NCBI GenBank assembly: GCA_030694965.1
Contig: JAUYTZ010000013.1
Location: forward strand, 124,001-188,000
From: Candidatus Paracaedibacteraceae bacterium
GTDB lineage: Bacteria; Pseudomonadota; Alphaproteobacteria; Paracaedibacterales; CAIOTO01
Direction of reading: 5' to 3'
DNA: 64,000 bases
The stretch's first letter is position 1. Each line of letters starts with the position of its first letter. The notes under the pieces were generated by a model, which had not been told where the DNA came from, did no database searches, and saw nothing but the letters and a program-made list of their open reading frames with translations. The position numbers and the translations under genes were made by a program. Below are positions 3,773 to 16,268 of this stretch, in pieces.

Positions 3773-4234
3773 ATGTATTGCACGCTAGACGATCTTACAC
3801 CATTAAAACAACAACAAAAACGCCTCATTGGTCTTGATATAGGAGACCGTCGCATCGGCGTGAGTGCTTGTGATGCGACTTGGTTTATAGCTTCCCCACT
3901 CGCTATGCTTGATCGAAAAACTGATTGGAAAGCACAATTGCATAAGCTGCTCAAGCAATACCCAGTAGGCGCATTTGTATCAGGATTGCCTCTATTGATG
4001 AATGGAGATGAAGGTCCTCAGGCAAAAAAGGTAAAAGAATTTCTTGAGGCGCATTTTGCATCTCTAGGATTTCCTATTTATCTTTGGGACGAACGTCTTT
4101 CAACATGCGCGGCTAACCGAACATTAATTGAAGCAGACATGTCACGTGCAAAACGAAAAGAAACTGTTGATAAAGTAGCTGCTAGTTTTATCTTACAAGG
4201 TGTACTCGATCGCCTACGAACGTCGTGTTTGTAA
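3773..4234 (+). CDS. ruvX: Putative Holliday junction resolvase / pre-16S rRNA nuclease RuvX (YqgF)
   Basis: This is a 153-residue RNase H-fold nuclease of the YqgF/RuvX family, which trims the 5' end of pre-16S rRNA and has been proposed to resolve recombination intermediates. The first acidic motif GLDIGDRRIGVS lies near residues 21-32, the DERLST motif near residue 107, and a final catalytic Asp in VDKVAASFILQGVLD close to the C-terminus. Length is typical for the family. The ATG start is preceded by a very AT-rich stretch with no clear Shine-Dalgarno sequence, so the first 15 residues are uncertain. It is a single gene facing away from nrdJ and converging on trkA. Confidence 0.9.
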   Translation: MYCTLDDLTPLKQQQKRLIGLDIGDRRIGVSACDATWFIASPLAMLDRKTDWKAQLHKLLKQYPVGAFVSGLPLLMNGDEGPQAKKVKEFLEAHFASLGFPIYLWDERLSTCAANRTLIEADMSRAKRKETVDKVAASFILQGVLDRLRTSCL

Positions 4235-4270: not shown

Positions 4271-5644
4271 CTACAGGTAAGATGGCCTTATAGAAAAAAG
4301 CTTTTCAACCTTTCGTGAACTATCTCTTTTCACCATCATTACAAGTACATCTCCAACCCCAACAATAAGCCGGCGTGGGTTTAAAATAACATCATTGTTA
4401 CGTACAACAGCAGCCACGTAAATGGAATCACGAACTGTTATATCCTCAATCGTTAAGCCAATGATATAACTTGTTTCTCGTGCCTCAGCCTCAATAACCT
4501 CAGCATATCCTCCAGCTAAGGAATGAATTGTGCGCACACGTCCTTGAAACACGTATTGCAAAATAGTCGACACAGTAATAACACGTGGGCTAATAATAGC
4601 ATCAACACCTAATGATGTTACCAAGCTCGCATATGTCATTTTATTCAAAAGTGCTGTTGCTCTTTTTGCGCCTTGACGCTTTGCCAACAAAGAAACAAGA
4701 ATATTTACACGATCATCATCTGTTAATGCCAAAATCGTTTCAGCATCTTGAACATTAGCTTCCGTCAAAACATCCAAATCAAGAGCATCACCGTTAAGCA
4801 CTTCTGTTGATTTTAATACGTGCGCAATTATTTCAGAGCGCTCTGTGTTTTTTTCAATTATTTTAACTTTTATACCGGTATTTTGTGCTTCTAATTCCTG
4901 AGCAAATCCCAGTCCAATATTCCCACCACCAACAATAATAATTTTACGCTTTTCTTGGGTGAAGTAACCAAAGGCTTCCATTGCTGATTCAACATCTTCC
5001 TGTCGCACAACAAAATAAACTTCATCATCAACTTCAAGAACATCATCTTTTTTAGGGAAAAAATGCACATCATTTCTGTATACACACAAGATAATAATAT
5101 CAAGCTGAGTAAACTGTGTAGAAAGTAAACGCAAAGGAGTATTTAAGATAAGCGAGCGCGAATGGCAGCGCACACCAATAATTTTTATTTGATCACCAAC
5201 CAAGGAAATAACTTCAAATGCTCCTGCAATTCGGGCACTTCGAGCAAGTGATTTTGCAACTTCAACTTCAGGTGAAATAGTTACGTCAATAGACATATTT
5301 TTACTTAAATAAGAAGACCTATCTCCTATTAAGTAATTTTCATGACGAATACGTGCCATCTTTGTTTTAACGCCAAACATAGAATGAGCAACTTCACACG
5401 CAACCATATTAACTTCATCAGAGGCAGTGACAGCAATCAAAAGATCAGCACTCTCAGCATTTGCCCGCTGCAAGACATTAGGATGCGATGCAAAACCAAC
5501 GATGGGTTTCACATCAATTTTATCACTTATACGTTTTAAAACTTCAGGTGAATGATCAACAACAGTGATATCATTTTCTTCGTTTGCGAGGTAGCGAGCT
5601 ATGCTATAACCAACTTGCCCTGCGCCGAGTATGATTACTTTCAT
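4271..5644 (-). CDS. trkA: Trk system potassium transport peripheral protein TrkA
   Basis: TrkA is the cytoplasmic NAD(H)-binding regulatory subunit that gates the TrkH/TrkG potassium channel. The 457-residue protein has the typical doubled layout. A first Rossmann (RCK-N) domain starts with VIILGAGQVGYSIA, and a second near residue 233 with IIIVGGGNIGLGFA; each is followed by an RCK-C domain. Length equals that of other TrkA proteins. The start lies 5 bases after the ntrX stop, so it is probably co-transcribed with ntrY-ntrX. In many alphaproteobacteria trkA also follows ntrX, which supports the assignment. No trkH gene is present in the window. Confidence 0.95.
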   Translation of the reverse strand: MKVIILGAGQVGYSIARYLANEENDITVVDHSPEVLKRISDKIDVKPIVGFASHPNVLQRANAESADLLIAVTASDEVNMVACEVAHSMFGVKTKMARIRHENYLIGDRSSYLSKNMSIDVTISPEVEVAKSLARSARIAGAFEVISLVGDQIKIIGVRCHSRSLILNTPLRLLSTQFTQLDIIILCVYRNDVHFFPKKDDVLEVDDEVYFVVRQEDVESAMEAFGYFTQEKRKIIIVGGGNIGLGFAQELEAQNTGIKVKIIEKNTERSEIIAHVLKSTEVLNGDALDLDVLTEANVQDAETILALTDDDRVNILVSLLAKRQGAKRATALLNKMTYASLVTSLGVDAIISPRVITVSTILQYVFQGRVRTIHSLAGGYAEVIEAEARETSYIIGLTIEDITVRDSIYVAAVVRNNDVILNPRRLIVGVGDVLVMMVKRDSSRKVEKLFSIRPSYL

Positions 5645-5649
5645 CTTGC

Positions 5650-7086
5650 TTATGCACCAATAGCTTCGTCAGGAAGCATGTCTTCATCACCACGATGCCT
5701 TAAATCATGCACGCCAAGTGCACGTAATTTGCGATGCAATGCAGAACGCTCCATGCCAATAAAACGAGCTGTTTGTGAAATATTTCCTGAGAAGCGATTT
5801 ACTTGCGCTAATAGATATTCACGTTCAAATGCTTCACGTGCCTCACGCAAAGGTAAGACAACAATATCAGCACTTTTACTTTGCCAATTAGAAACAAACG
5901 TATTTCCATTAATAATTTCTAAAGGTAAATGGGATGCTAAAATAGGATGCTGTGTTTCTGTGTTAAGCATAATCAATAGCCAATCAATAACATTGCGCAT
6001 TTGCTGCAAATCACCAGGCCAGTTATAAGATTGCATCAATACAATTGCATCTTCAGCAAAAACACGAGATTGCATGCCAGAAGCAGCGGCAGCTTCATCC
6101 ATTAAGCGCTGCGCAATTATTGGAATATCACTCACTCGATCTTTCAATGCAGGAAGCATAACATGGGTTACACTTAAACGATAATAAAGATCTTCTCTAA
6201 AGTTTCCCTCTTGAATCATTAGCTGCACGTCATCAGATGTACCCGCAATGAAGCGCACATCAATTGGAAGCTTTTCGGAACCACCAACACGCGTAAAGGC
6301 TTGCTCTTGTAAAATTTTTACAAGACGTGATTGCAGTGGAAGTGGTAATTGAGTGATTTCATCAAAATAAATTGTACCACCATGGGCTTGTTCTAAAATA
6401 CCAATTTTACGTGGTTGATTTGAATCATGATTCACAATTTCAGTCCCAAGAAGGTCCGCTTCTAATTTTGTGGGATGCATTGCGCCACAATTTACCACAC
6501 AAAATGAAGCTTGCGCACGCTTCGATTGTAAATGAATTTCACGCGCTATGGATTCTTTACCACACCCAAGAGGACCTGTTATAAATACACGTCCATTTGT
6601 TTGGGCGCTTTTTTCAACAGTCTGACGCAACTGCGTTACATGGCTAGAGTTTCCAATCAAAGCAGTTGCTGTGACGCGTGCTTTAATGCGAAGTTCATCA
6701 TTTTCTCTTTTCAATCGAGAAGACTCAATTGCACGTCGGGCAACTAGTAATAATCGCTCTGTTTGAAAAGGCTTTTCAATGAAATCATACGCCCCCTTTT
6801 TGATAGCCGAAACAGCTGTTTCAATAGTGCTATGCCCACTAATCATAATAACAGGTACATATGGATGATCACGCTTGATAATATCTAAAATTTTTAAACC
6901 ATCACGTTCTCCATCACCAAGCCAAACATCCAAAACAACCAAGTTAGGCTGACGTTGCTTGATTGATTCAAGTGCTGATATACCATCAGAGGCTGTACGT
7001 GTAGCATAGCCTTCATCTTCCAGTATTCCTGACACAAGTTCACGGATATCACTTTCATCATCTACAATTAAAATATCCTGAGACAT
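5650..7086 (-). CDS. ntrX: Nitrogen/redox response regulator NtrX
   Basis: NtrX is the response regulator partner of the NtrY kinase. The 478-residue protein has an N-terminal receiver domain, with the phospho-acceptor aspartate in VVLDVWLG near residue 53 and the conserved lysine in FIEKPF near residue 104. A central AAA+ domain follows (Walker A FITGPLGCGKES near residue 169, Walker B IYFDEI near 239) and then a Fis-type helix-turn-helix ending (NISQTARFIGMERSALHRKL). The loop where sigma-54 activators carry GAFTGA instead reads through NHDSNQPRKIGILEQ, so direct sigma-54 activation is unlikely; this absence is, as far as I recall, usual for NtrX. The ATG overlaps the ntrY stop in TAATG, indicating translational coupling. 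Confidence 0.95.
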   Translation of the reverse strand: MSQDILIVDDESDIRELVSGILEDEGYATRTASDGISALESIKQRQPNLVVLDVWLGDGERDGLKILDIIKRDHPYVPVIMISGHSTIETAVSAIKKGAYDFIEKPFQTERLLLVARRAIESSRLKRENDELRIKARVTATALIGNSSHVTQLRQTVEKSAQTNGRVFITGPLGCGKESIAREIHLQSKRAQASFCVVNCGAMHPTKLEADLLGTEIVNHDSNQPRKIGILEQAHGGTIYFDEITQLPLPLQSRLVKILQEQAFTRVGGSEKLPIDVRFIAGTSDDVQLMIQEGNFREDLYYRLSVTHVMLPALKDRVSDIPIIAQRLMDEAAAASGMQSRVFAEDAIVLMQSYNWPGDLQQMRNVIDWLLIMLNTETQHPILASHLPLEIINGNTFVSNWQSKSADIVVLPLREAREAFEREYLLAQVNRFSGNISQTARFIGMERSALHRKLRALGVHDLRHRGDEDMLPDEAIGA

Positions 7087-8948
7087 TAATTAGCATCCTT
7101 TTCTTTTTTGTCACGATTTAAAAAACTTAAAACAACCGACGCACCTTTTAAGTCCTTACTTTCTTTCAATTCAATCCTGCCTTGATGATCAGAAACGATT
7201 CGATATACAATAGCCAATCCTAAGCCACTACCTTTATCACGCGTTGTGTAATATGGCTCAAGCAGTTTGTTTTTTTCAATATTTGGAAATCCTGGGCCAT
7301 TATCATCTATTGAAACACATAATATAGGGTTATTTTCATAAAGTCTAAGCTTAATCTTTGGTGGATTGGTAGAATTTTTATTTTCAGAAATAGCATTAAT
7401 TGCATTTTGCAAAAGATTATTCAAAACCTGTGTCATTTGGAAAGAATCAATCCATGCAAAATAACTATCATATGCAGATTCAAATTCAAACTCAATCTCA
7501 GGATGTGCTTGAATTTGTAAAAAAAGCGCGTGATTGCATAGCTCAATCCAATTCACAAATTCAAATTTTGGTTCTGGCATGCGCGCAAAATTTGAAAATT
7601 CATTAACCAAGTTTCCAATGCTTCCAACTTGGCGAATAATGGTTTCCACACAAGCTTGAAACGTTTTAGGGTCAGATGTAATTTCTTTTAAATAACGACG
7701 TTTCAATCGCTCTGCGGAAAGTTGAATTGGCGTTAAAGGGTTTTTAATTTCATGCGCAATTTTGCGTGCCATATCTGCCCAAGCGGATTTTTTTTCAGAC
7801 AAAATTAAGTCATGTTTTTGCTGCAATAGTTGATGCGTCATACGATTAAAAGACCGACACAAGTCATCAATTTCATTGTTAACAGCATGCGTTTCAAGTT
7901 TTATAGACAAATCACCTTCAGCAACAGCCTCAGCGGCTGCTATCAATTTAGTAATAGGTTTTACCATTGAATCAGCAATAACAAGCCCCCCCCATATGGC
8001 TGCCATAAGTAGAAGCAAAGCAACAATGGTAAAAAATGCAACAAACGTAAATTGAACATCAACATGTTGACCTTCAAGCCTAGCATAATCTTGAATAGCT
8101 GATTTTGTTAAATCAACGTGTTTCAATACTTTTTGATCAATGAATTTTCCTACAAGCAAATACGTATCTGTTGAATAGTCTAATTTAATAAGAGCCCGAA
8201 CCCTATCTTTTGCTTTTGACTCAATAATAACTGGGGTTTGGGGATCTTTCTTAAGTATTTTTAAAGCATCTGTAAGATCTTCAAGTATTAGTGAAAAACT
8301 AAGATAAGATCTACCTAAAATGCGAGGTGGCTTTTGATTGTCAAAAATTAGAATCTCAGCAAGACCACGCTCATCTGCTTCGCGGCTTAAATTTTCAGAT
8401 AACTCGTCAAGATGTGCTTGATTTTCATGCTGCTCAACAAAAGATGGCATCAAAGGACTATAAAGCCGCTTTAATGATTCAATATCAAAGGATATTGATT
8501 TTTTATGTTCTTTCAAATAAGACTCAGCCACAACGCTTGCTTCTTGCAAGGCATCATGGACAGGCTTGCCAAACCATGCATCAACACCTATATTGAAAAA
8601 CTGTGCAGAAAAAAAAGCAACACAAAGCGCAGGAGCAACAGAAACAACAACAAATAAGATAACTATATGCGCATGCAACTTAGATCCCTTAAGTCCTTGC
8701 CGTTTTTCAGTCCATAACTCGACAGACTTTCGAGCAACAACAAAAACAAGAAGAAGAAGAAGTGTTAGATCAAGATAGATCAAAAAAATTACAGATCTGC
8801 TTTTTTCGCCAAGAGCAATATTGCGTGTCAGTGCCCAATAAGTAGCAAAACCACAAATAATGGCAAGTATGCTCAATAAATAAGGCAGCTTGCTTACTAT
8901 ATTGTAGCGACGGCTAATACTTAGAACACGATTGTAATAGTAGTTCAT
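7086..8948 (-). CDS. ntrY: Membrane sensor histidine kinase NtrY
   Basis: This is the sensor kinase that phosphorylates NtrX. The 620-residue protein has hydrophobic segments near residues 22-42, 50-70 and 92-115, a periplasmic loop of roughly 160 residues, a further membrane segment near residue 300 and a HAMP linker. The HisKA box ARKIAHEIKNPLTPIQLS lies near residues 395-412 with the phospho-accepting His in AHEIKNP. The HATPase domain shows NNLLQNAINAI, DNGPGFP and GSGLGLAIVYRIV. HAMP runs almost directly into HisKA, so the PAS domain of longer NtrY proteins appears to be missing, which fits the short length. The gene begins 10 bases after the upstream transporter stop and ends in ntrX. 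Confidence 0.93.
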   Translation of the reverse strand: MNYYYNRVLSISRRYNIVSKLPYLLSILAIICGFATYWALTRNIALGEKSRSVIFLIYLDLTLLLLLVFVVARKSVELWTEKRQGLKGSKLHAHIVILFVVVSVAPALCVAFFSAQFFNIGVDAWFGKPVHDALQEASVVAESYLKEHKKSISFDIESLKRLYSPLMPSFVEQHENQAHLDELSENLSREADERGLAEILIFDNQKPPRILGRSYLSFSLILEDLTDALKILKKDPQTPVIIESKAKDRVRALIKLDYSTDTYLLVGKFIDQKVLKHVDLTKSAIQDYARLEGQHVDVQFTFVAFFTIVALLLLMAAIWGGLVIADSMVKPITKLIAAAEAVAEGDLSIKLETHAVNNEIDDLCRSFNRMTHQLLQQKHDLILSEKKSAWADMARKIAHEIKNPLTPIQLSAERLKRRYLKEITSDPKTFQACVETIIRQVGSIGNLVNEFSNFARMPEPKFEFVNWIELCNHALFLQIQAHPEIEFEFESAYDSYFAWIDSFQMTQVLNNLLQNAINAISENKNSTNPPKIKLRLYENNPILCVSIDDNGPGFPNIEKNKLLEPYYTTRDKGSGLGLAIVYRIVSDHQGRIELKESKDLKGASVVLSFLNRDKKEKDAN

Positions 8949-8958
8949 TTATGCATTA

Positions 8959-10380
8959 TCACTCAGCTACACTATTATCTATATTTTTTTCAAGCACTTT
9001 TGATCGATGATTCCATGTCAAAGCAAAGAAAAAAGCTCCTAAAAGAGCAGAAATAGTAATCATGATAAAAGCGAAATCCCAACCAAAATTATCAACAACA
9101 GCACCAACACCAACTCCAGCGACACTTGCTCCTAAATAACCAAAGGTTCCTGTTAAACCAGATGCTGTGCCTGCAGCTCTTTTTGATGCAAAATCAGAAG
9201 CAGCAACGCCCACCAAGATTTGTGGACCAGAAATTAAAAAACCAATTCCCACCATTATTAAAAAGTGTAACGCAGTTGCGCCTTGCGGTGATTGCCACAA
9301 AGCAAAAATACACCCCATCAAAAGAAACATTAAAATTGCTCCTACACGTCCACGATGACCTTTAAAAACCTTGTCTGACAAGTAACCTGCCAAAAGCCCT
9401 CCGAAAATTCCCGCGAAATCATAAACAGCTGTTTGCATACCAGCAAGCTTAATAGTGCTTCCTTTAAACTCACTTAAAAACGTTGGTGCCCATGTAAACA
9501 CAGTCATGCGCACAACATAAACAAAAAAATTTGCCATACAAACATACCAAACCAACTTGTTTTTAAGCACGTGTGAACATAAAAAACGCCAAAAAGATAT
9601 GTTTTCTTCCTCTACCTCAAACGCAACAGAGTTTAAGCTATGATACTCCTCAATAGGAGGCAACCCCAACGATTCAGGTGTGTCACGCAAACGATTAAAT
9701 AAGAAAAAAGCTAATAAAACACACACAACAGCTGGGATAAAAAACATATAGCGCCATCCGTAGTGTTCAATAATAAAACCAGCAGAAACAAGAACGATAC
9801 AACAACCAATTTGCTGTGATGAATTCCACAATGCCCACTTACTTGCTAGCTCACGCGGCGAATACCAATGATTAAGCAAACGTGCACAGGGTGGCCATCC
9901 CATAGACTGAAAGCATTGATTTAGTATCCAAAAAACCATAAACCAGCTTAAATAGGAGCCAAACCCCATACAAAAACTCATCGCAGCAGACATTAGCAAA
10001 CCAAACGACATCATATTTCGTGCATTTACTCGATCGCCCAAATAGCCACTAATAAATTTTCCAAAGCCATACAAAATTGCACCTGCGGAGATAACAGCAC
10101 CTAGCTGCGTCTTACTATAACCAAGCTCACTTTGCATAAAAGGCATTGCCATCGTCATATTAACGCGCAACAAATAGAAAGCAGCGTAACCAAACATCAT
10201 GGAATACATAATGCGAATGCGCCAGTATTTAAATAAAGATTTTTGTGATAACATCGTTAAACTTTTTATATTTTTAGTGGCATTTTCAATTGAATTTCCA
10301 GATATATTTGTGAAAGATGACATATTATCTGTCTTGTTAAGCACAGGAATAGCATTTGCCTTTGACATTAGATCAATCAA
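8959..10380 (-). CDS. OPA-family (GlpT/UhpC-like) sugar-phosphate:phosphate antiporter
   Basis: This 473-residue major-facilitator protein belongs to the organophosphate:phosphate antiporter family, which swaps glycerol-3-phosphate or hexose phosphates for inorganic phosphate. After a polar N-terminus of about 50 residues it shows YLLRVNMTMAMPFMQSELGY, then the family signature GWPPCARLLNHWYSPRE near residue 173 and KWALWNSSQQIG. About 12 hydrophobic segments can be counted. The N-terminus contains several Met codons; a start at MSSF, MLSQ or near them is possible. It is the first gene of an apparent operon with ntrY-ntrX-trkA. The substrate cannot be settled by eye; resemblance to UhpC suggests hexose phosphate, a nutrient that host-dwelling bacteria import. 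Confidence 0.85.
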   Translation of the reverse strand: MIDLMSKANAIPVLNKTDNMSSFTNISGNSIENATKNIKSLTMLSQKSLFKYWRIRIMYSMMFGYAAFYLLRVNMTMAMPFMQSELGYSKTQLGAVISAGAILYGFGKFISGYLGDRVNARNMMSFGLLMSAAMSFCMGFGSYLSWFMVFWILNQCFQSMGWPPCARLLNHWYSPRELASKWALWNSSQQIGCCIVLVSAGFIIEHYGWRYMFFIPAVVCVLLAFFLFNRLRDTPESLGLPPIEEYHSLNSVAFEVEEENISFWRFLCSHVLKNKLVWYVCMANFFVYVVRMTVFTWAPTFLSEFKGSTIKLAGMQTAVYDFAGIFGGLLAGYLSDKVFKGHRGRVGAILMFLLMGCIFALWQSPQGATALHFLIMVGIGFLISGPQILVGVAASDFASKRAAGTASGLTGTFGYLGASVAGVGVGAVVDNFGWDFAFIMITISALLGAFFFALTWNHRSKVLEKNIDNSVAE

Positions 10381-10468
10381 GTAAAAAAACTCATGATCTG
10401 ATCATAATCGTGAACTAGCAAAATTGCACGTTTTTTTTTACATCAAAAAACAATATATCTTACTAGAT

Positions 10469-12793
10469 TCAGTCTTCATATATACTAAAGTTAATTTTAT
10501 GAGAAGCTTTAATATTATTTATTTTCAAAATGAATGATTCAAATATGGGAAGAGCAACACGTCCCCCTCCCTCACCTTTACCAAGAGATTTAGCCAACGG
10601 ATGACCAACAAATGTTCCTATAAGCAAGGTTTTTCCAGCAGGAATTTTAATAAAACCAATAAACCATGCATCTTTATAATCATTTGTCGTTCCTGTCTTT
10701 CCACCAATATCAAAACCATATTTCTCTTTCAAATAACTTATTTGACGTGCGGTACCACGCATAACAACGCCACGTAACATCTTTTTCATCTCAGTGGCAT
10801 AAGCAGGATCAACAACCTGACTTCGATCGTCTTGCACAAAAACATGTCCCAATGTCATCATATAATAATCTGACGCAGACAATGACTGCATCGCTTTAAC
10901 ATTAAACAAGTGATCATCAAAGGCCGGAGGCATCTGAAAAATCATGCGCCCCAATCGATCATGCACACGCGTAATTAAATGTGGATAAAGACGCTTTCCC
11001 CCATTAACAAAAGGCGCGTAGGCTCCAGTTATTTTAAGCAAAGTTGTCTCACCTGCCCCAAGCGACATTGCTAATTGTGATGGCATTTCGCCCATACACC
11101 CTAATCTTTTTGCAACATTTTGAATGGGAAACATTCCAATTTGATGGGCAATGCGCACTGTCATTTGATTGCTTGAACGTTCCAGTCCCTGATATAAAGG
11201 CAGAGGCCCAAATGATTTTCCAGTTGCATTTTTTGGCGCATAAACACCAAGACCCTGCCCCATATTTATTTCTATAGGCGCATCATCAATAATTGTGTCT
11301 TTTGTGTACCCCGATTCAAGAGCAGCTAAATAAACAAAAGGTTTAAAACTAGACCCTGGTTGACGCATAGCTTGCGTAGCGCAATTAAATTGAGAAATAT
11401 CAGTGCTATAACCGCCTGTCATTGCAAGAATTTCACCTGTCTCTGCATCAACAACAACCATTGCCCCTGTTATTGTTGGAATTTGATCGACAGTATATTT
11501 TGTGTGTATTGTAGCATCGCCCTTATCAGTTAAATTATCTACAATACGTGTAAAAATAACATCGCCAATTTGAAAAAAAGATGATAGTTGAGTTTTTCCC
11601 TTTCCACTCTTTCCGTTGTTTTTCAGAAAACGGGATGCAATAAAATCTTCAGTTGAAATAAAACCCTTTCTACCATCTAAAAAACCAAGCTCTAGCTGAT
11701 TACTTGCTACAGTTAAAACAACAGCCAAATCATTTTTACGATTTTTAGGAATAAATTTAAGAGCGTCTACTGTGCTTTTTAAGGATAAGCGCCATGTCTT
11801 TATTTCAGAAGAGTTCATACGCACCACAGGTCCTCTAAAACCATGACGCTTATCATACGTCTCTAGCCCCTCTCTTAAAGCTTCTTCGCATTTCTTTTGT
11901 AAATGTGTGTCTAAACTTGTGTAAACACTGAAACCAGAATTCAATATCTCAGTAACACCATAACGTTGAGCCAGCTCCCTTCTTACATTTTCACTTGGAT
12001 AATCGTTTATGTTATGTCGTACAGGCAGATTAACAAGCAAAGGTTCATTTTGAGCTTTTTGCATTTCGGCATAAGAAATAACGCCTTCTTCAGCAAGTCG
12101 TTTTAATGTCCAATTGCGGCGTACTAACGCCTTATCTTTTTCTTGCACAGGATGATAATTTGAGGGAGCCTTTGGAAGGGATGCTAGAAATGCACATTCA
12201 GCTAACGACAATTCATTCAAGGATTTTTGAAAATACGCATAAGCAGCAGAAGCTATACCATAACTTCTCATACCAAAATATATCTGATTAAAATAAAGTT
12301 CTAAAATACGATCTTTAGAAAGTGCACTTTCAATCCGGATAGACATAATTGCTTCTCTAATTTTTCGTATATAAGAACGCTCATTACCAACAAGAAAATT
12401 TTTTGCGACCTGCTGCGTAATCGTAGAAGCACCTATTGGATTAACATGCCAACTTCGATGGATTGTGTTATCAATAACGGCTCGAATGATGCTCAATAAA
12501 TCAATACCAGGATGGTAATAAAAATTTTTATCCTCAGCTACTAAAAAGGCCTTTATTAGCAAAGGCGGAATCTCGTGAATAGGGACAAAAACTCGATATT
12601 CAGATGACATTTCACGATAAAGAACGTTATCCCGACTATACATGCGCGTACCTTCCGGCGGCGTATACACTTTTAAGAAAGCGTGATTAGGTAAATCATG
12701 TCCATGGTAATAAATTAAAACAAGAATAAGCGCCAATAAAACACTTACGCATAAACACATTACTTTGAATATGCGACAAATGATACTTGACAT
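10469..12793 (-). CDS. mrcA: Penicillin-binding protein 1A (bifunctional peptidoglycan synthase)
   Basis: This class A PBP polymerises glycan strands and cross-links peptides in the periplasm. The 774-residue protein has an N-terminal membrane anchor (residues 8-28). The glycosyltransferase domain shows AEDKNFYYHPGID near residue 91 with the catalytic Glu, and GASTITQQVAKNFL near residue 126. A middle region of about 200 residues fits the OB-like insert of PBP1A. The transpeptidase has SSFK (QPGSSFKPFVYLAALESG), the SxN box in ERSSNQ and the KTG box in GGKTGTTNDYKDAW. All catalytic motifs are intact. A small membrane-protein gene lies 22 bases upstream and could be co-transcribed. Confidence 0.96.
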   Translation of the reverse strand: MSSIICRIFKVMCLCVSVLLALILVLIYYHGHDLPNHAFLKVYTPPEGTRMYSRDNVLYREMSSEYRVFVPIHEIPPLLIKAFLVAEDKNFYYHPGIDLLSIIRAVIDNTIHRSWHVNPIGASTITQQVAKNFLVGNERSYIRKIREAIMSIRIESALSKDRILELYFNQIYFGMRSYGIASAAYAYFQKSLNELSLAECAFLASLPKAPSNYHPVQEKDKALVRRNWTLKRLAEEGVISYAEMQKAQNEPLLVNLPVRHNINDYPSENVRRELAQRYGVTEILNSGFSVYTSLDTHLQKKCEEALREGLETYDKRHGFRGPVVRMNSSEIKTWRLSLKSTVDALKFIPKNRKNDLAVVLTVASNQLELGFLDGRKGFISTEDFIASRFLKNNGKSGKGKTQLSSFFQIGDVIFTRIVDNLTDKGDATIHTKYTVDQIPTITGAMVVVDAETGEILAMTGGYSTDISQFNCATQAMRQPGSSFKPFVYLAALESGYTKDTIIDDAPIEINMGQGLGVYAPKNATGKSFGPLPLYQGLERSSNQMTVRIAHQIGMFPIQNVAKRLGCMGEMPSQLAMSLGAGETTLLKITGAYAPFVNGGKRLYPHLITRVHDRLGRMIFQMPPAFDDHLFNVKAMQSLSASDYYMMTLGHVFVQDDRSQVVDPAYATEMKKMLRGVVMRGTARQISYLKEKYGFDIGGKTGTTNDYKDAWFIGFIKIPAGKTLLIGTFVGHPLAKSLGKGEGGGRVALPIFESFILKINNIKASHKINFSIYED

Positions 12794-12815: not shown

Positions 12816-13244
12816 TCAAAAATCATTTTTCTTGTTTTTATCTTCTTTTGACACACAAAATGCCTTACTCGATATATTTTTTTCAAATTGATCGTCCTCC
12901 CATTTACTTCCTAAGAAAGGAAAACATTCTTCAACCCATGGCAACTGACCTAAAGTAAGCGCTTTTAACCCAACGTTGATACCACATCCTAAAATAACCC
13001 AAATAGGCCAAAAGACCCCTGCCCCCATAGATAGCCACACAATAATTGAAAGAACACACACAATACCATATATTAGCAAGCTTTTATAAAATTCTCTAAG
13101 CTCTCTAATTTTTAATCGCAGGCACCGCAATTCTTCATCAGGATAAGCATCCACACTATCTATAAACTGTTCAATGTCTTTAATTGTCTTTTTCTTTGTT
13201 TGTTTAGATATTGAATTTTCAACACTAGAATTATTAGGCTCCAT
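12816..13244 (-). CDS. 2TM-domain small membrane protein
   Basis: The 142-residue protein has a polar, lysine-rich N-terminus followed by an amphipathic segment (DEELRCLRLKIRELREFYKS). Two hydrophobic helices follow (LLIYGIVCVLSIIVWLSM and FWPIWVILGCGINVGLKAL), and the tail is charged. This layout fits the 2TM domain family, whose function is unknown. An AGGAT ribosome-binding site sits about 8 bases before the ATG. It lies just upstream of mrcA on the same strand and divergent from tssF, so it may be a cell-envelope accessory, but nothing in the sequence shows that. Confidence 0.7.
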   Translation of the reverse strand: MEPNNSSVENSISKQTKKKTIKDIEQFIDSVDAYPDEELRCLRLKIRELREFYKSLLIYGIVCVLSIIVWLSMGAGVFWPIWVILGCGINVGLKALTLGQLPWVEECFPFLGSKWEDDQFEKNISSKAFCVSKEDKNKKNDF

Positions 13245-13398: not shown

Positions 13399-15225
13399 AT
13401 GATAACTATGTCTGAAGAAACGCGCGATAGATTTATAACGTATTACACAAACGAAATGAATTATTTACGTCAAGCAGGGCACGCATTCTCTCAAACACAT
13501 CCAAAAATTGCACGCAGACTTGAACTATCTGATAAAGAATCACCTGATCCACATACAGAACGTCTTCTTGAATCGTTTGCATTTTTAACAGCACGTCTCG
13601 CACAAGAAATTGATAACCGCTTTCCTGAATCAGCAGCAGCTTTATTGCAAGTACTTTACCCGCACCTTGTTAATCCAATACCATCAATGAGTGTCGCGCA
13701 ATTTCATACAGACCCCTCAAAAGGAAAAATAACAAAAAGCCATACTATTAAAAAAGGGTCTTCCCTTTTTTGTTACGCATCAGGTGATATTATGTGCCGT
13801 TTTCAAACGGCTTATCCTGTTACACTCCTTCCACTTGAACTAATCAGTGCTAACGTTATACAACGTTCTTATCTGCCAAGTTCAAAACACGGATGGTATC
13901 TAAAATTAACCCTTAAAACACATGGTGGAATAGCAATTAATGACATTGACTTGGATGATTTGACTGTTCATATTTCCGCACAACGCCATGTTGCTTATGC
14001 CATTTATGAAAGTTTATTTTCTCAAAAAGAAAAACATATTTTTGCGTCTATACCAAACGAAGAACATATTATTGAGCTTACTAAAAATTCCATTAATCCT
14101 ATGGGATTCTCTGAAGATGAAATGATGCTACCTACGCCGCCACATGGCACAAATGCTTTTTTACTTCTTCAAGAATTTTTTCATTTACCTGAAAAATTCA
14201 TGTTTTTTAAAATAACTAATTTAAAAAAAATTATTGAAACACAGCTTTTCATCTCTGATACGCTGGATCTATATATATCACTGGGACATATTGGAAGCTT
14301 ACTTGATTATAAAATTAATAAAGATAACTTTTTATTAGGATGCTCACCAATTATAAACCTTTTTAAAAAAACAACAGATCCACTGCGACTTGATCGTCGA
14401 AAAATTCGCTATCGTTTAATCCCAGATCAACGCCGCGATAATACATTAGAGTTTTACAGCATCGAATCCGTTATGTCTTCGGTTGAATCTTCTGACCAAG
14501 TTCAAACATTTGCTCCTTATTTTTCGCTGCAGCATCATAATGATGAAAATCAAATTTTCTGGCACACAAAACGTATTGCATCTGAAATTCGCGGCGTTCC
14601 AGGATCGGATATAATGATTTCATTTGTGGACTTAAAATTTAACCCAACCCTTCCTCCACGTAATATTGTGTACGCCAATACACTATGCACCAATCGTTAT
14701 TTAGCGGAACAAATTCCTGGACAAACAGAGCTTCAACTAGAAGAAGCCGCACCAACATCACACATTACATGTTTATATAAACCAACAGCACAAAGTTATG
14801 CTCCAATAGATGGTGATTCGCTTTGGCGTATGATTTCAATATTATCAGTTAATCATTTAACACTTATGAACTCAGAATCATCCCTTGACACTCTAAAAGA
14901 GCGTCTTTTTTTGCACGTAGGCACATCGCAAAAAGATAAACTCAAAGACATTGCCAGTATTATCGGCATAAGTCACAAACAAATTGTGCGCCGCATTGGA
15001 AATGAGGCATGGCGCGGCTTTGTAAAAGGCATAGAAGTAACGATTCAATTTGATACAACTCCTCAAAAAGGAGCAAGTAGCTTCTTACTCTCATCAATAT
15101 TAAGACATTACTTTTCCATCACAGTATCAATGAATTCATTTGTAGAACTTGTGCTTAAAGGCACTGAACGAGAAGGAGAATGGATGAGATGGCCAGCATT
15201 ACTCGGTACCAAAACCCTCCTGTAA
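13399..15225 (+). CDS. tssF: Type VI secretion system baseplate subunit TssF
   Basis: TssF (VasA/ImpG) forms, with TssG, TssE and TssK, the baseplate of the contractile type VI secretion apparatus on the inner membrane. The 608-residue protein begins with the typical FITYYTNEMNYLRQAG followed by HPKIARRLELSDKESPDPH and VERLLESFAFLTARL-like sequence. In the family this N-terminal region is the best conserved. The PTSHITCLY and SLWRMISILSVNHLTL segments lie near residues 450-490, as in other TssF proteins. A second in-frame ATG (MSEETRD) 9 bases in is an equally good start. It overlaps tssG by 46 bases. No other tss gene is visible in the window. Confidence 0.9.
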   Translation: MITMSEETRDRFITYYTNEMNYLRQAGHAFSQTHPKIARRLELSDKESPDPHTERLLESFAFLTARLAQEIDNRFPESAAALLQVLYPHLVNPIPSMSVAQFHTDPSKGKITKSHTIKKGSSLFCYASGDIMCRFQTAYPVTLLPLELISANVIQRSYLPSSKHGWYLKLTLKTHGGIAINDIDLDDLTVHISAQRHVAYAIYESLFSQKEKHIFASIPNEEHIIELTKNSINPMGFSEDEMMLPTPPHGTNAFLLLQEFFHLPEKFMFFKITNLKKIIETQLFISDTLDLYISLGHIGSLLDYKINKDNFLLGCSPIINLFKKTTDPLRLDRRKIRYRLIPDQRRDNTLEFYSIESVMSSVESSDQVQTFAPYFSLQHHNDENQIFWHTKRIASEIRGVPGSDIMISFVDLKFNPTLPPRNIVYANTLCTNRYLAEQIPGQTELQLEEAAPTSHITCLYKPTAQSYAPIDGDSLWRMISILSVNHLTLMNSESSLDTLKERLFLHVGTSQKDKLKDIASIIGISHKQIVRRIGNEAWRGFVKGIEVTIQFDTTPQKGASSFLLSSILRHYFSITVSMNSFVELVLKGTEREGEWMRWPALLGTKTLL

Positions 15226-16268
15226 CAGATGCCCTAAGAGATGAACCTTATTCTTTTGACTTTGATCAAGCAATTCTTGTGCTTGAACACATGCATAAAT
15301 ATAAGCAATCAAATAACAATATGCAATTTGAATCATTAGGTGAGTCTCTTGATCTTTCACATGAAGCACTTACAATTAAATCTCATGTCAGCTTTTCAAC
15401 GCCTGCTTCAGAGTTACAAAAGCTAGATATTGACCAAGAAAAGCCAGCATTGTGGATTAACTTCTTAAGCTTAGCAGGCGTTTTAGGGCCATTACCAACA
15501 CCATACACAGAGATGGTCATCGATCGAACGCGTTCAAAAAACACAAGTTTTCGGGACTTTCTAGACATATTTAATCATCGTATTGCAAGCATGTGGCATC
15601 GATTGCATAAAAAAGTTTACGTAGGCATTGCACAAGTTCTACCTCAACATTCAAACATTGGAAAGTGCTTGTTAAGGCTTGCTGGTATTAGTCATGAAAA
15701 AATCATTCAAGGCACAGAACTTAATGAATCAGCTCTTCTCACCTATCAAAATTTATTTTGGAAGCAACCACATGGGACAATTAGTCTTGAACAAATGATT
15801 CATCATCATTTTAACGTAAAGGCAAAAATTCATGAGTTTATTGGTGCCTGGAGACATGCTATTCCTGATGAAATAACACGTATTGGTATGATAAGTGGGC
15901 AATGGAATACGTTGGGGGAAAATGTAGTTCTGGGATCAAAATGTTGGGATCAAATGGCAGGTATTCGCATTGATATTGGTCCTCTTACATGGGAACGTTT
16001 TTGTGAATTTTTACCCCTTCAAAACCACACAGGTAAACATCATTATCACGCACTCAAAGATTTGTGCAGACTTTATGTTGGTATCGATTTTTCAATTAAT
16101 GCTAAATTGATACTTGATCGCAATCAAATTAAACCTGTCGTACTACAAAGCCAATTAACCTCACCTAAAGAAACCTCTTTTCATTTAGGACTAAACACAT
16201 GGCTATATAGCAAAACAATATTAGAAAAAAACGTTTCTACATGTCTAACGTTTGAGCACCCATACTAG
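15180..16268 (+). CDS. tssG: Type VI secretion system baseplate subunit TssG
   Basis: TssG (VasB/ImpH) pairs with TssF in the type VI baseplate wedge. The 362-residue protein has the N-terminal segment YSFDFDQAILVLEHM and then VSFSTPASELQKLDID near residue 70. FLSLAGVLGPLPTPYTEMV near residue 97 resembles the FMGLTGPSGVLP-like region of the family, and FLDIFNHRIASMWHRLHKK near residue 121 is a conserved TssG block. The gene starts inside tssF. An AGGAG lies at 15174-15178, which spaces better to the in-frame ATG at 15189 (MASITRY) than to the ATG at 15180, so the real start may be three codons later. The overlap indicates coupled translation with TssF. Confidence 0.9.
   Translation: MDEMASITRYQNPPVTDALRDEPYSFDFDQAILVLEHMHKYKQSNNNMQFESLGESLDLSHEALTIKSHVSFSTPASELQKLDIDQEKPALWINFLSLAGVLGPLPTPYTEMVIDRTRSKNTSFRDFLDIFNHRIASMWHRLHKKVYVGIAQVLPQHSNIGKCLLRLAGISHEKIIQGTELNESALLTYQNLFWKQPHGTISLEQMIHHHFNVKAKIHEFIGAWRHAIPDEITRIGMISGQWNTLGENVVLGSKCWDQMAGIRIDIGPLTWERFCEFLPLQNHTGKHHYHALKDLCRLYVGIDFSINAKLILDRNQIKPVVLQSQLTSPKETSFHLGLNTWLYSKTILEKNVSTCLTFEHPY

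Follow-up and report, generated by a model that had tools for sequence, protein, structure and literature searches.

Why should the gene for a probable organophosphate:phosphate antiporter stand directly in front of ntrY, ntrX and trkA? The question is raised by a 64,000-nucleotide stretch of DNA, hereafter the window, from Candidatus Paracaedibacteraceae bacterium (assembly GCA_030694965.1, contig JAUYTZ010000013.1, positions 124,001 to 188,000), in which four genes follow one another on the minus strand. These encode an MFS transporter of the OPA family, probably an organophosphate:phosphate antiporter (8959–10380; an open reading frame with an MFS_1 match, compared with curated models); NtrY, a membrane sensor kinase without a PAS domain (7086–8948; Pfam and alignments); NtrX, a response regulator with no GAFTGA loop in its AAA+ domain (5650–7086; Pfam, the NtrX equivalog and alignments); and TrkA, a potassium-uptake regulator encoded by the final gene of the unit (4271–5644; TrkA_N/TrkA_C and the TrkA equivalog). 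A sequence-only reading had proposed that the antiporter heads an ntrY-ntrX-trkA operon and that, by analogy with UhpC-UhpB, it might signal to NtrY. We consider it probable that the first idea is right in a particular form: at the level of the family, ntrYX-trkA forms an operon with the antiporter gene and uses its promoter, with co-expression as the consequence.

How could such an arrangement have come about? We infer that in an ancestor of the window's family (f1, within the Holosporales/Paracaedibacterales) an ntrY-ntrX-trkA cluster, no longer behind dusB, landed directly behind the OPA antiporter gene and is now read with it in a single transcript from the antiporter's promoter. The antiporter would swap inorganic phosphate for host organophosphates (glycerol-3-phosphate, triose or hexose phosphate), NtrY and NtrX would be an ordinary alphaproteobacterial NtrYX pair that acts independently of sigma54, and the tie between transporter and NtrYX would be one of dosage and co-expression, with no direct signalling at the protein level.

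Gene order in the window and its relatives

The spacing is tight throughout. The antiporter gene ends 10 bases before ntrY, as the sequence-only reading had it (8959 versus 8948, with the gap at 8949–8958); ntrY and ntrX overlap in TAATG, again as claimed, with base 7086 common to the ntrY stop and the ntrX start (within ...AATTAATGTCT...); and 5 bases separate ntrX from trkA. At its other end, the transporter frame has two candidate starts, TTG at 10380 and ATG at 10368, both of which are in-register start codons in three relatives (TTG and ATG in genome G001, ATG and ATG in G003 and G004). Gaps of 10 and 5 bases and an overlap of a single base argue for an operon, but is the order kept?

We surveyed 42 genomes of the order, with transporter orthologues taken at E<=1e-50. 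All but G022 yielded an ntrY orthologue (41 genomes), and all but G002, G026 and G027 a transporter orthologue (39); of the 38 genomes with both, five have the two genes adjacent, namely the window's own (G000), G001, G003 and G004 of the same genus, g1, and G005 of a second genus of family f1. The order is therefore kept in 5/5 readable genomes of the family, which bears out the conservation that the sequence-only reading had named as a check. What lies next to the four-gene block is not the same in the two genera: a gene for a PBP1A-family penicillin-binding protein in g1, a divergent ksgA-type gene in G005. Still the block persists; that the order has been kept in two genera despite differing flanks is a second argument for the operon. 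Against this stands the sixth member of the family, G002, in which no transporter orthologue was found and the contig stops inside ntrY, so that the linkage may be lost there.

Beyond the family the linkage disappears. Judged mostly by contig positions, the transporter lies beside ntrY in 0/33 other genomes of the order, the two being on different contigs in most. Across the class, the transporter (E<=1e-60) occurs in 28/385 genomes, 5 of them from the window's order; of the 23 outside the order, 22 have ntrY (E<=1e-25), and in 0/22 is it near the transporter, the genes being on different contigs or more than 100 kb apart. Among 80 transporter loci with public titles, ntrY adjoins the transporter in four, from the same genomes as G001, G003, G004 and G005. 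One of the contigs, PNMQ01000004.1 (L119), is public under the name Candidatus Pelagibacter sp.; that name is probably wrong, as the genes of this contig cluster with the window's family.

In short, the order is real and beyond chance. Transporter-ntrY-ntrX-trkA is a derived, family-level arrangement, the rearrangement presumably having run from a locus without the transporter to one with it. Within titles and abstract openings, we found no report of this order; on that basis the version of the known ntrYX-trkA locus with the transporter in front is new.

What precedes ntrY elsewhere

What, then, occupies the place of the transporter in other families? According to an excerpt of PMC13001219, nifR3/dusB and ntrBC precede ntrYX in alphaproteobacteria, in agreement with the sequence-only reading, which had noted ntrBC before ntrYX in many of them. 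We read the region upstream of ntrY directly in 13 genomes outside f1 (L049–L061: 12 of the 33 above, plus G027). In families f4, f6, f7 and f8 (five genomes, L056 and L058–L061) the order is dusB, a gene for a Fis-type protein of 93–118 amino acids, ntrY and ntrX, with trkA after ntrX in the f4, f6 and f8 genomes; by coordinates, the Fis-type gene adjoins ntrY in 15/15 genomes of these four families. In G027, the only f5 genome read, a CDF cation-efflux gene abuts ntrY with a gap of 0 (L057:5787–8921). In the f2 (three) and f3 (four) genomes no gene with a recognised domain stands close before ntrY; the predecessors are a divergent gene, an unassigned 80-amino-acid frame (L054) or same-strand genes 223–315 bases away (L053, L055). 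With dusB-fis, a CDF gene, the transporter or nothing before ntrY, the slot is exchangeable, and that other genes fill it elsewhere is one of the reasons for which we favour a shared promoter over a functional pairing of proteins. Put more generally, the gene before an otherwise stable ntrY-ntrX-trkA is exchangeable in reduced, host-associated alphaproteobacteria.

The Fis-type protein deserves a remark of its own. It is a stand-alone protein of about 95 amino acids encoded directly behind dusB, both in the five genomes above and in the window's genome, where dusB lies on another contig (L184:4355–5625, C13) paired with the fis-like gene. In f4, f6, f7 and f8 the Fis-type gene takes the place that ntrB-ntrC has in other alphaproteobacteria, between dusB and ntrY. 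A five-row profile of it matches Fis in the PDB with 75 bits over 82 positions and a Fis-like protein with 79 bits, versus 23.5–30.4 bits over fewer than 50 positions for the NtrC proteins of the PDB; among the matches listed, it also hits, at 102–111 bits, the C-terminal ends of 24 alphaproteobacterial frames as long as NtrC, and stand-alone copies precede ntrY in G054, G186, G279 and G343 as well. Fis is said to have come from NtrC, an idea reportedly put forward by Morett and Bork in 1998, and a Fis-type gene in the ntrB-ntrC position would fit it. A tree of 37 domains did not resolve one origin from several.

Promoter and transcription unit

If the four genes form one unit, where does it start? 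The gene directly upstream on the same strand encodes the PBP1A-family protein (10469–12793, minus strand; domain and curated models), 88 bases from the transporter, and the corresponding gaps are 96, 56 and 111 bases in G001, G003 and G004. The antiporter can thus head the unit only if that gap holds a promoter. A conserved non-coding block (10398–10436, minus strand) is common to 4/4 aligned species of the one genus, with 30 of its 39 columns invariant, among them an A run, CGTGCAAT and GATTATGAT; it is readable as a putative promoter consisting of an A-tract, a weak −35 element GTGCAA (10424–10429), a 17-base spacer and a −10 element TATGAT (10401–10406). In the window and in G001, the 10-base gap leaves no room for a promoter before ntrY, and the coincidence of so short a gap with a promoter-like block shared by all four species again argues for the operon. 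The simplest reading, and a likely one, is a single transcription unit with the antiporter at its head. The part of the original proposal that concerned an operon-like order thus stood, and the headship of the antiporter became conditional on the promoter upstream of it.

Several points weigh against this reading. The upstream block was not called by a sigma-70 consensus scan, and that scan gave promoter-like sites at chance rate (35 versus 34.5 expected from shuffled sequence). The transporter-ntrY gap is 58 bases in G003 and G004, where a promoter could fit. The transporter gene has, within its 3' end, a weak terminator-like hairpin of 5 pairs at 9035–9048 (−5.8 kcal/mol). In f2, the transporter follows PBP1A by 38–39 bases, and read-through from PBP1A could occur in the window too. 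Finally, the equally tight plrP-plrSR-trkAH cluster of Bordetella is, according to PMC13001219, not one operon and has internal promoters.

On another reading there is adjacency without shared control, with one or more separate promoters in the 3' end of the transporter gene or in ntrY and an order that is a neutral relic carried through two genera. The Bordetella cluster, whose internal promoters exist despite overlaps (PMC13001219, in part), the 58-base gaps and the hairpin near the transporter's 3' end speak for this possibility, and in G005 the transporter and ntrY frames overlap as called. The gap, just 10 bases long in both the window and G001, speaks against it, as do the scan, which, weak as it is, gave no promoter-like site on the minus strand in 8517–10513, and the survival of the four-gene block when both flanks changed between genera. 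The hairpin we reject as a terminator: it is weak, it codes for a conserved peptide, and the homologous stretches in the four other f1 members fold with different pairings, at −1.9 to −6.7 kcal/mol. A terminator scan of the 10-kb region gave 14 sites versus 7.2 expected, most of them inside genes. With no strong terminator and no space for a promoter in the 10-base gap, the kind of boundary between transporter and ntrY that would have undone the sequence-only reading did not appear, and we regard separate control as unlikely.

Could the transporter instead be read mainly with PBP1A, the unit being 2TM-PBP1A-transporter-ntrY-ntrX-trkA and the transporter not its head? PBP1A is the same-strand upstream neighbour of the transporter in G000, G001, G003, G004 and two of the f2 genomes read, and directly precedes it in 12/80 titled loci, three of g1 and nine others (L105, L106, L111–L115, L117 and L118, of which L106 is f2, genome G010, and the remaining eight are treated as f2-like); the 38–39-base gap of f2 contains AAGGAG. 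The PBP1A gene of L065 is spread over two frames. It is plausible from this distribution, across g1 of f1 and f2, that the PBP1A-transporter pair is ancestral and older than the linkage to ntrY. Common transcription from PBP1A is less probable still than separate control, however, given the gaps of 56–111 bases with their conserved promoter-like block in the four g1 genomes, and given G005, where the upstream gene is divergent and PBP1A does not adjoin, yet transporter-ntrY-ntrX-trkA persists.

Autoregulation by NtrX was also considered as a source of control. A CAAN2-5TTG site is reported for the ntrY promoters of Brucella and Sinorhizobium in the consulted part of PMC9223101, and every upstream block but that of G001 contains one (window, G003, G004). 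We find no evidence for such control and set it aside: 5/18 unit heads carry the site within 150 bases upstream, versus 4.77 expected from dinucleotide shuffles.

The transporter

What does the antiporter carry? The closest solved structure is GlpT (1pw4; 307 bits), and the NCBIfam models place the protein near, and below, the curated subfamilies: 361.1 bits for GlpT (cut-off 632.55), 360.6 for 2A0104 (407.75), 324.8 for UhpC (NF008661; 564), 243.8 for PgtP (750) and 223.8 for UhpT (497). Among the matches listed (25 of the 27 families matched), no curated NCBIfam cut-off was reached, and the protein does not qualify as a UhpC. It belongs to the OPA family by full-length homology and by equivalents of both GlpT arginines, R45 and R269, which we take to be the phosphate-binding ones; the roles of the GlpT residues, and the offset to the PDB-chain numbering, are likewise our assumption, the numbering having been transferred by hand as chain index plus one. 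GlpT R45, K80 and R269 correspond to R72, K108 and R291 of the transporter, invariant in 21/21 aligned orthologues, and equivalents of Y38, Y42, W138, N162, Y266 and Y393 are kept in the window's protein as well. That the two arginines never vary is a further reason for the explanation we favour, and the transporter is likely a phosphate-linked antiporter. Against so specific a role, GlpT K46, H165, D274 and Y362 are replaced by V73, Q189, T296 and S384, which makes the substrate uncertain. In the window's genome, phosphoglucose isomerase (PGI) is matched at 107.5 bits by a sequence in which one stop was counted, and a glycerol-3-phosphate dehydrogenase N-domain is encoded too, so that hexose phosphate and triose or glycerol phosphate uses are both possible. 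A TIGR00881 search of this genome found no further close paralogue, the runner-up scoring 100.9 bits versus 361.3.

Relatives of the transporter in rickettsiae share 42–47% identity with it (80 loci with public titles). As stated in an excerpt of PMC5615194, rickettsiae take up dihydroxyacetone phosphate and glycerol-3-phosphate and conserve GlpT, and the glycerol-3-phosphate import measured in them is ATP-dependent and may go through another transporter. Did the transporter arrive horizontally along with the linkage? The five f1 rows group together in the transporter tree (91/94, not starred) and the six f1 rows do so in a tree of NtrX, NtrY and TrkA (99/100, starred); elsewhere the two conflict, with f1+f7 and f2+f4 in the former and f4+f5, f6 and f8 in the latter. 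Both trees are midpoint-rooted with long branches, and they give no clear sign for or against such an arrival. Outside f1 the transporter has other neighbours: PBP1A in f2, dnaA in f3, shikimate kinase in f6 and f8, and an M50 protease gene in f7.

NtrY, NtrX and direct sensing

NtrY has 620 amino acids and matches NtrY_N (PF19312, 83 bits), HAMP (PF00672), HisKA (PF00512) and HATPase_c (PF02518); HAMP (324–375) is followed directly by HisKA (391–458), with no Pfam PAS match between them. NtrY of Brucella has its heme/redox PAS at that position. A PAS-length insertion is present in 5/18 aligned NtrY proteins (f4, f5, f6 twice and f8) and absent in 13/18 (f1, the window included, f2, f3 and f7); Pfam confirmed PAS in the single long NtrY checked (L056) and found none in the single f7 NtrY checked (L060). 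By these alignments PAS is a usual, not a universal, feature of NtrY, and the membership of the window's pair in NtrYX stands.

NtrX has the domains Response_reg, Sigma54_activat and HTH_8, scores 603 bits against the equivalog NF051870 (cut-off 600), and keeps the receiver Asp53 and the helix-turn-helix. The GAFTGA loop is missing in 19/19 aligned NtrX proteins, the window's included; both this loss and a PAS-less NtrY also occur in relatives without transporter linkage. Caulobacter NtrX is likewise without GAFTGA (PMC10274813, in part), so its absence here is not new. An rpoN match exists in 25/42 genomes of the order (24 above cut-off, with G037 a fragment), and 24 of these 25 have two sigma54-activator domains. 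Among the 17 genomes without one, 14 have a single activator domain, which by coordinates is the NtrX adjoining ntrY; G022 has none, and G010 and G015 have two. The association of rpoN with activator count has a Fisher p of 2e-8, which overstates the case, since the genomes are related to one another and several of them are incomplete. GAFTGA-less NtrX is retained where sigma54 seems gone, and its standing as the sole sigma54-activator-type gene in 14/17 rpoN-less genomes is part of why we favour an ordinary, sigma54-independent NtrYX pair. As a separate observation, rpoN and the second activator gene are often missing together, 15/17 rpoN-less genomes having fewer than two activator domains; in the window's genome the second activator has 391 amino acids and carries GAFTGA (L185:6516–7691).

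Does the antiporter nevertheless act on NtrY, as a substrate receptor in a sensory pair of the UhpC-UhpB type? For this one can cite the adjacency kept throughout f1, an NtrY without PAS, and Bordetella PlrP, a periplasmic protein encoded beside an NtrY-family kinase, for which PMC13001219 gives genetic evidence as a third component. However, PAS is also missing in the unlinked NtrY of f2, f3 and f7, and its loss is therefore no trade for a transporter; NtrY_N is standard, being the only N-terminal domain found by Pfam at E<=0.001, a search whose six families for NtrY included neither MASE1 nor HisKA_3; the transporter is under the UhpC cut-off and unlinked in other families; and a CDF transporter holds the slot in one f5 genome. 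On these grounds we rejected UhpC-type sensing as the principal reading; the analogy drawn in the sequence-only reading does not hold up, and a sensory pair is very improbable. Equally hard to credit is a looser variant in which the antiporter would be the trigger transporter of a PAS-less NtrY, organophosphate/phosphate flux setting the kinase/phosphatase balance and NtrYX reporting host sugar-phosphate supply.

What would each reading mean? If co-transcription holds, a nutrient antiporter and a global regulator would rise and fall together in family f1. Direct sensing would give NtrYX a new input; the evidence is mostly against it.

Neighbouring genes

At its 3' end the unit is bounded by ruvX (3773–4234, plus strand; open reading frame, domain and curated models), convergent with trkA. 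Upstream of PBP1A lies the gene for the 2TM-domain protein (12816–13244, minus strand; domain match). The type VI secretion genes tssF (602.5 bits) and tssG (227.9 bits) adjoin the unit on the plus strand (window 13399–16268).

Comparison with known systems

In E. coli UhpC-UhpB, an OPA-family transporter gene lies beside a membrane kinase gene, as it does in the window. UhpB is a MASE1/HisKA_3 kinase that works with a LuxR-type regulator; the window differs in having an NtrY_N/HAMP/HisKA kinase and an NtrC-type regulator. E. coli GlpT (1pw4), a glycerol-3-phosphate:phosphate antiporter, mostly shares its key residues with the window protein, which lies below the GlpT cut-off.

The canonical alphaproteobacterial locus, nifR3/dusB-ntrB-ntrC-ntrY-ntrX(-trkA) in the excerpted account of PMC13001219, has the same ntrY-ntrX-trkA order and tight spacing as the window; it differs in that dusB, ntrB and ntrC stand upstream, and none of them does so in the window. 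The same excerpt describes rsmB-plrP-plrS-plrR-trkA-trkH of Bordetella, also of the NtrYX family. Its upstream gene encodes a periplasmic DUF4390 protein with genetic evidence of an effect on the kinase, that of the window an MFS transporter without such evidence; in layout the two loci agree, each with an extra gene before the kinase and with trkA directly after the regulator.

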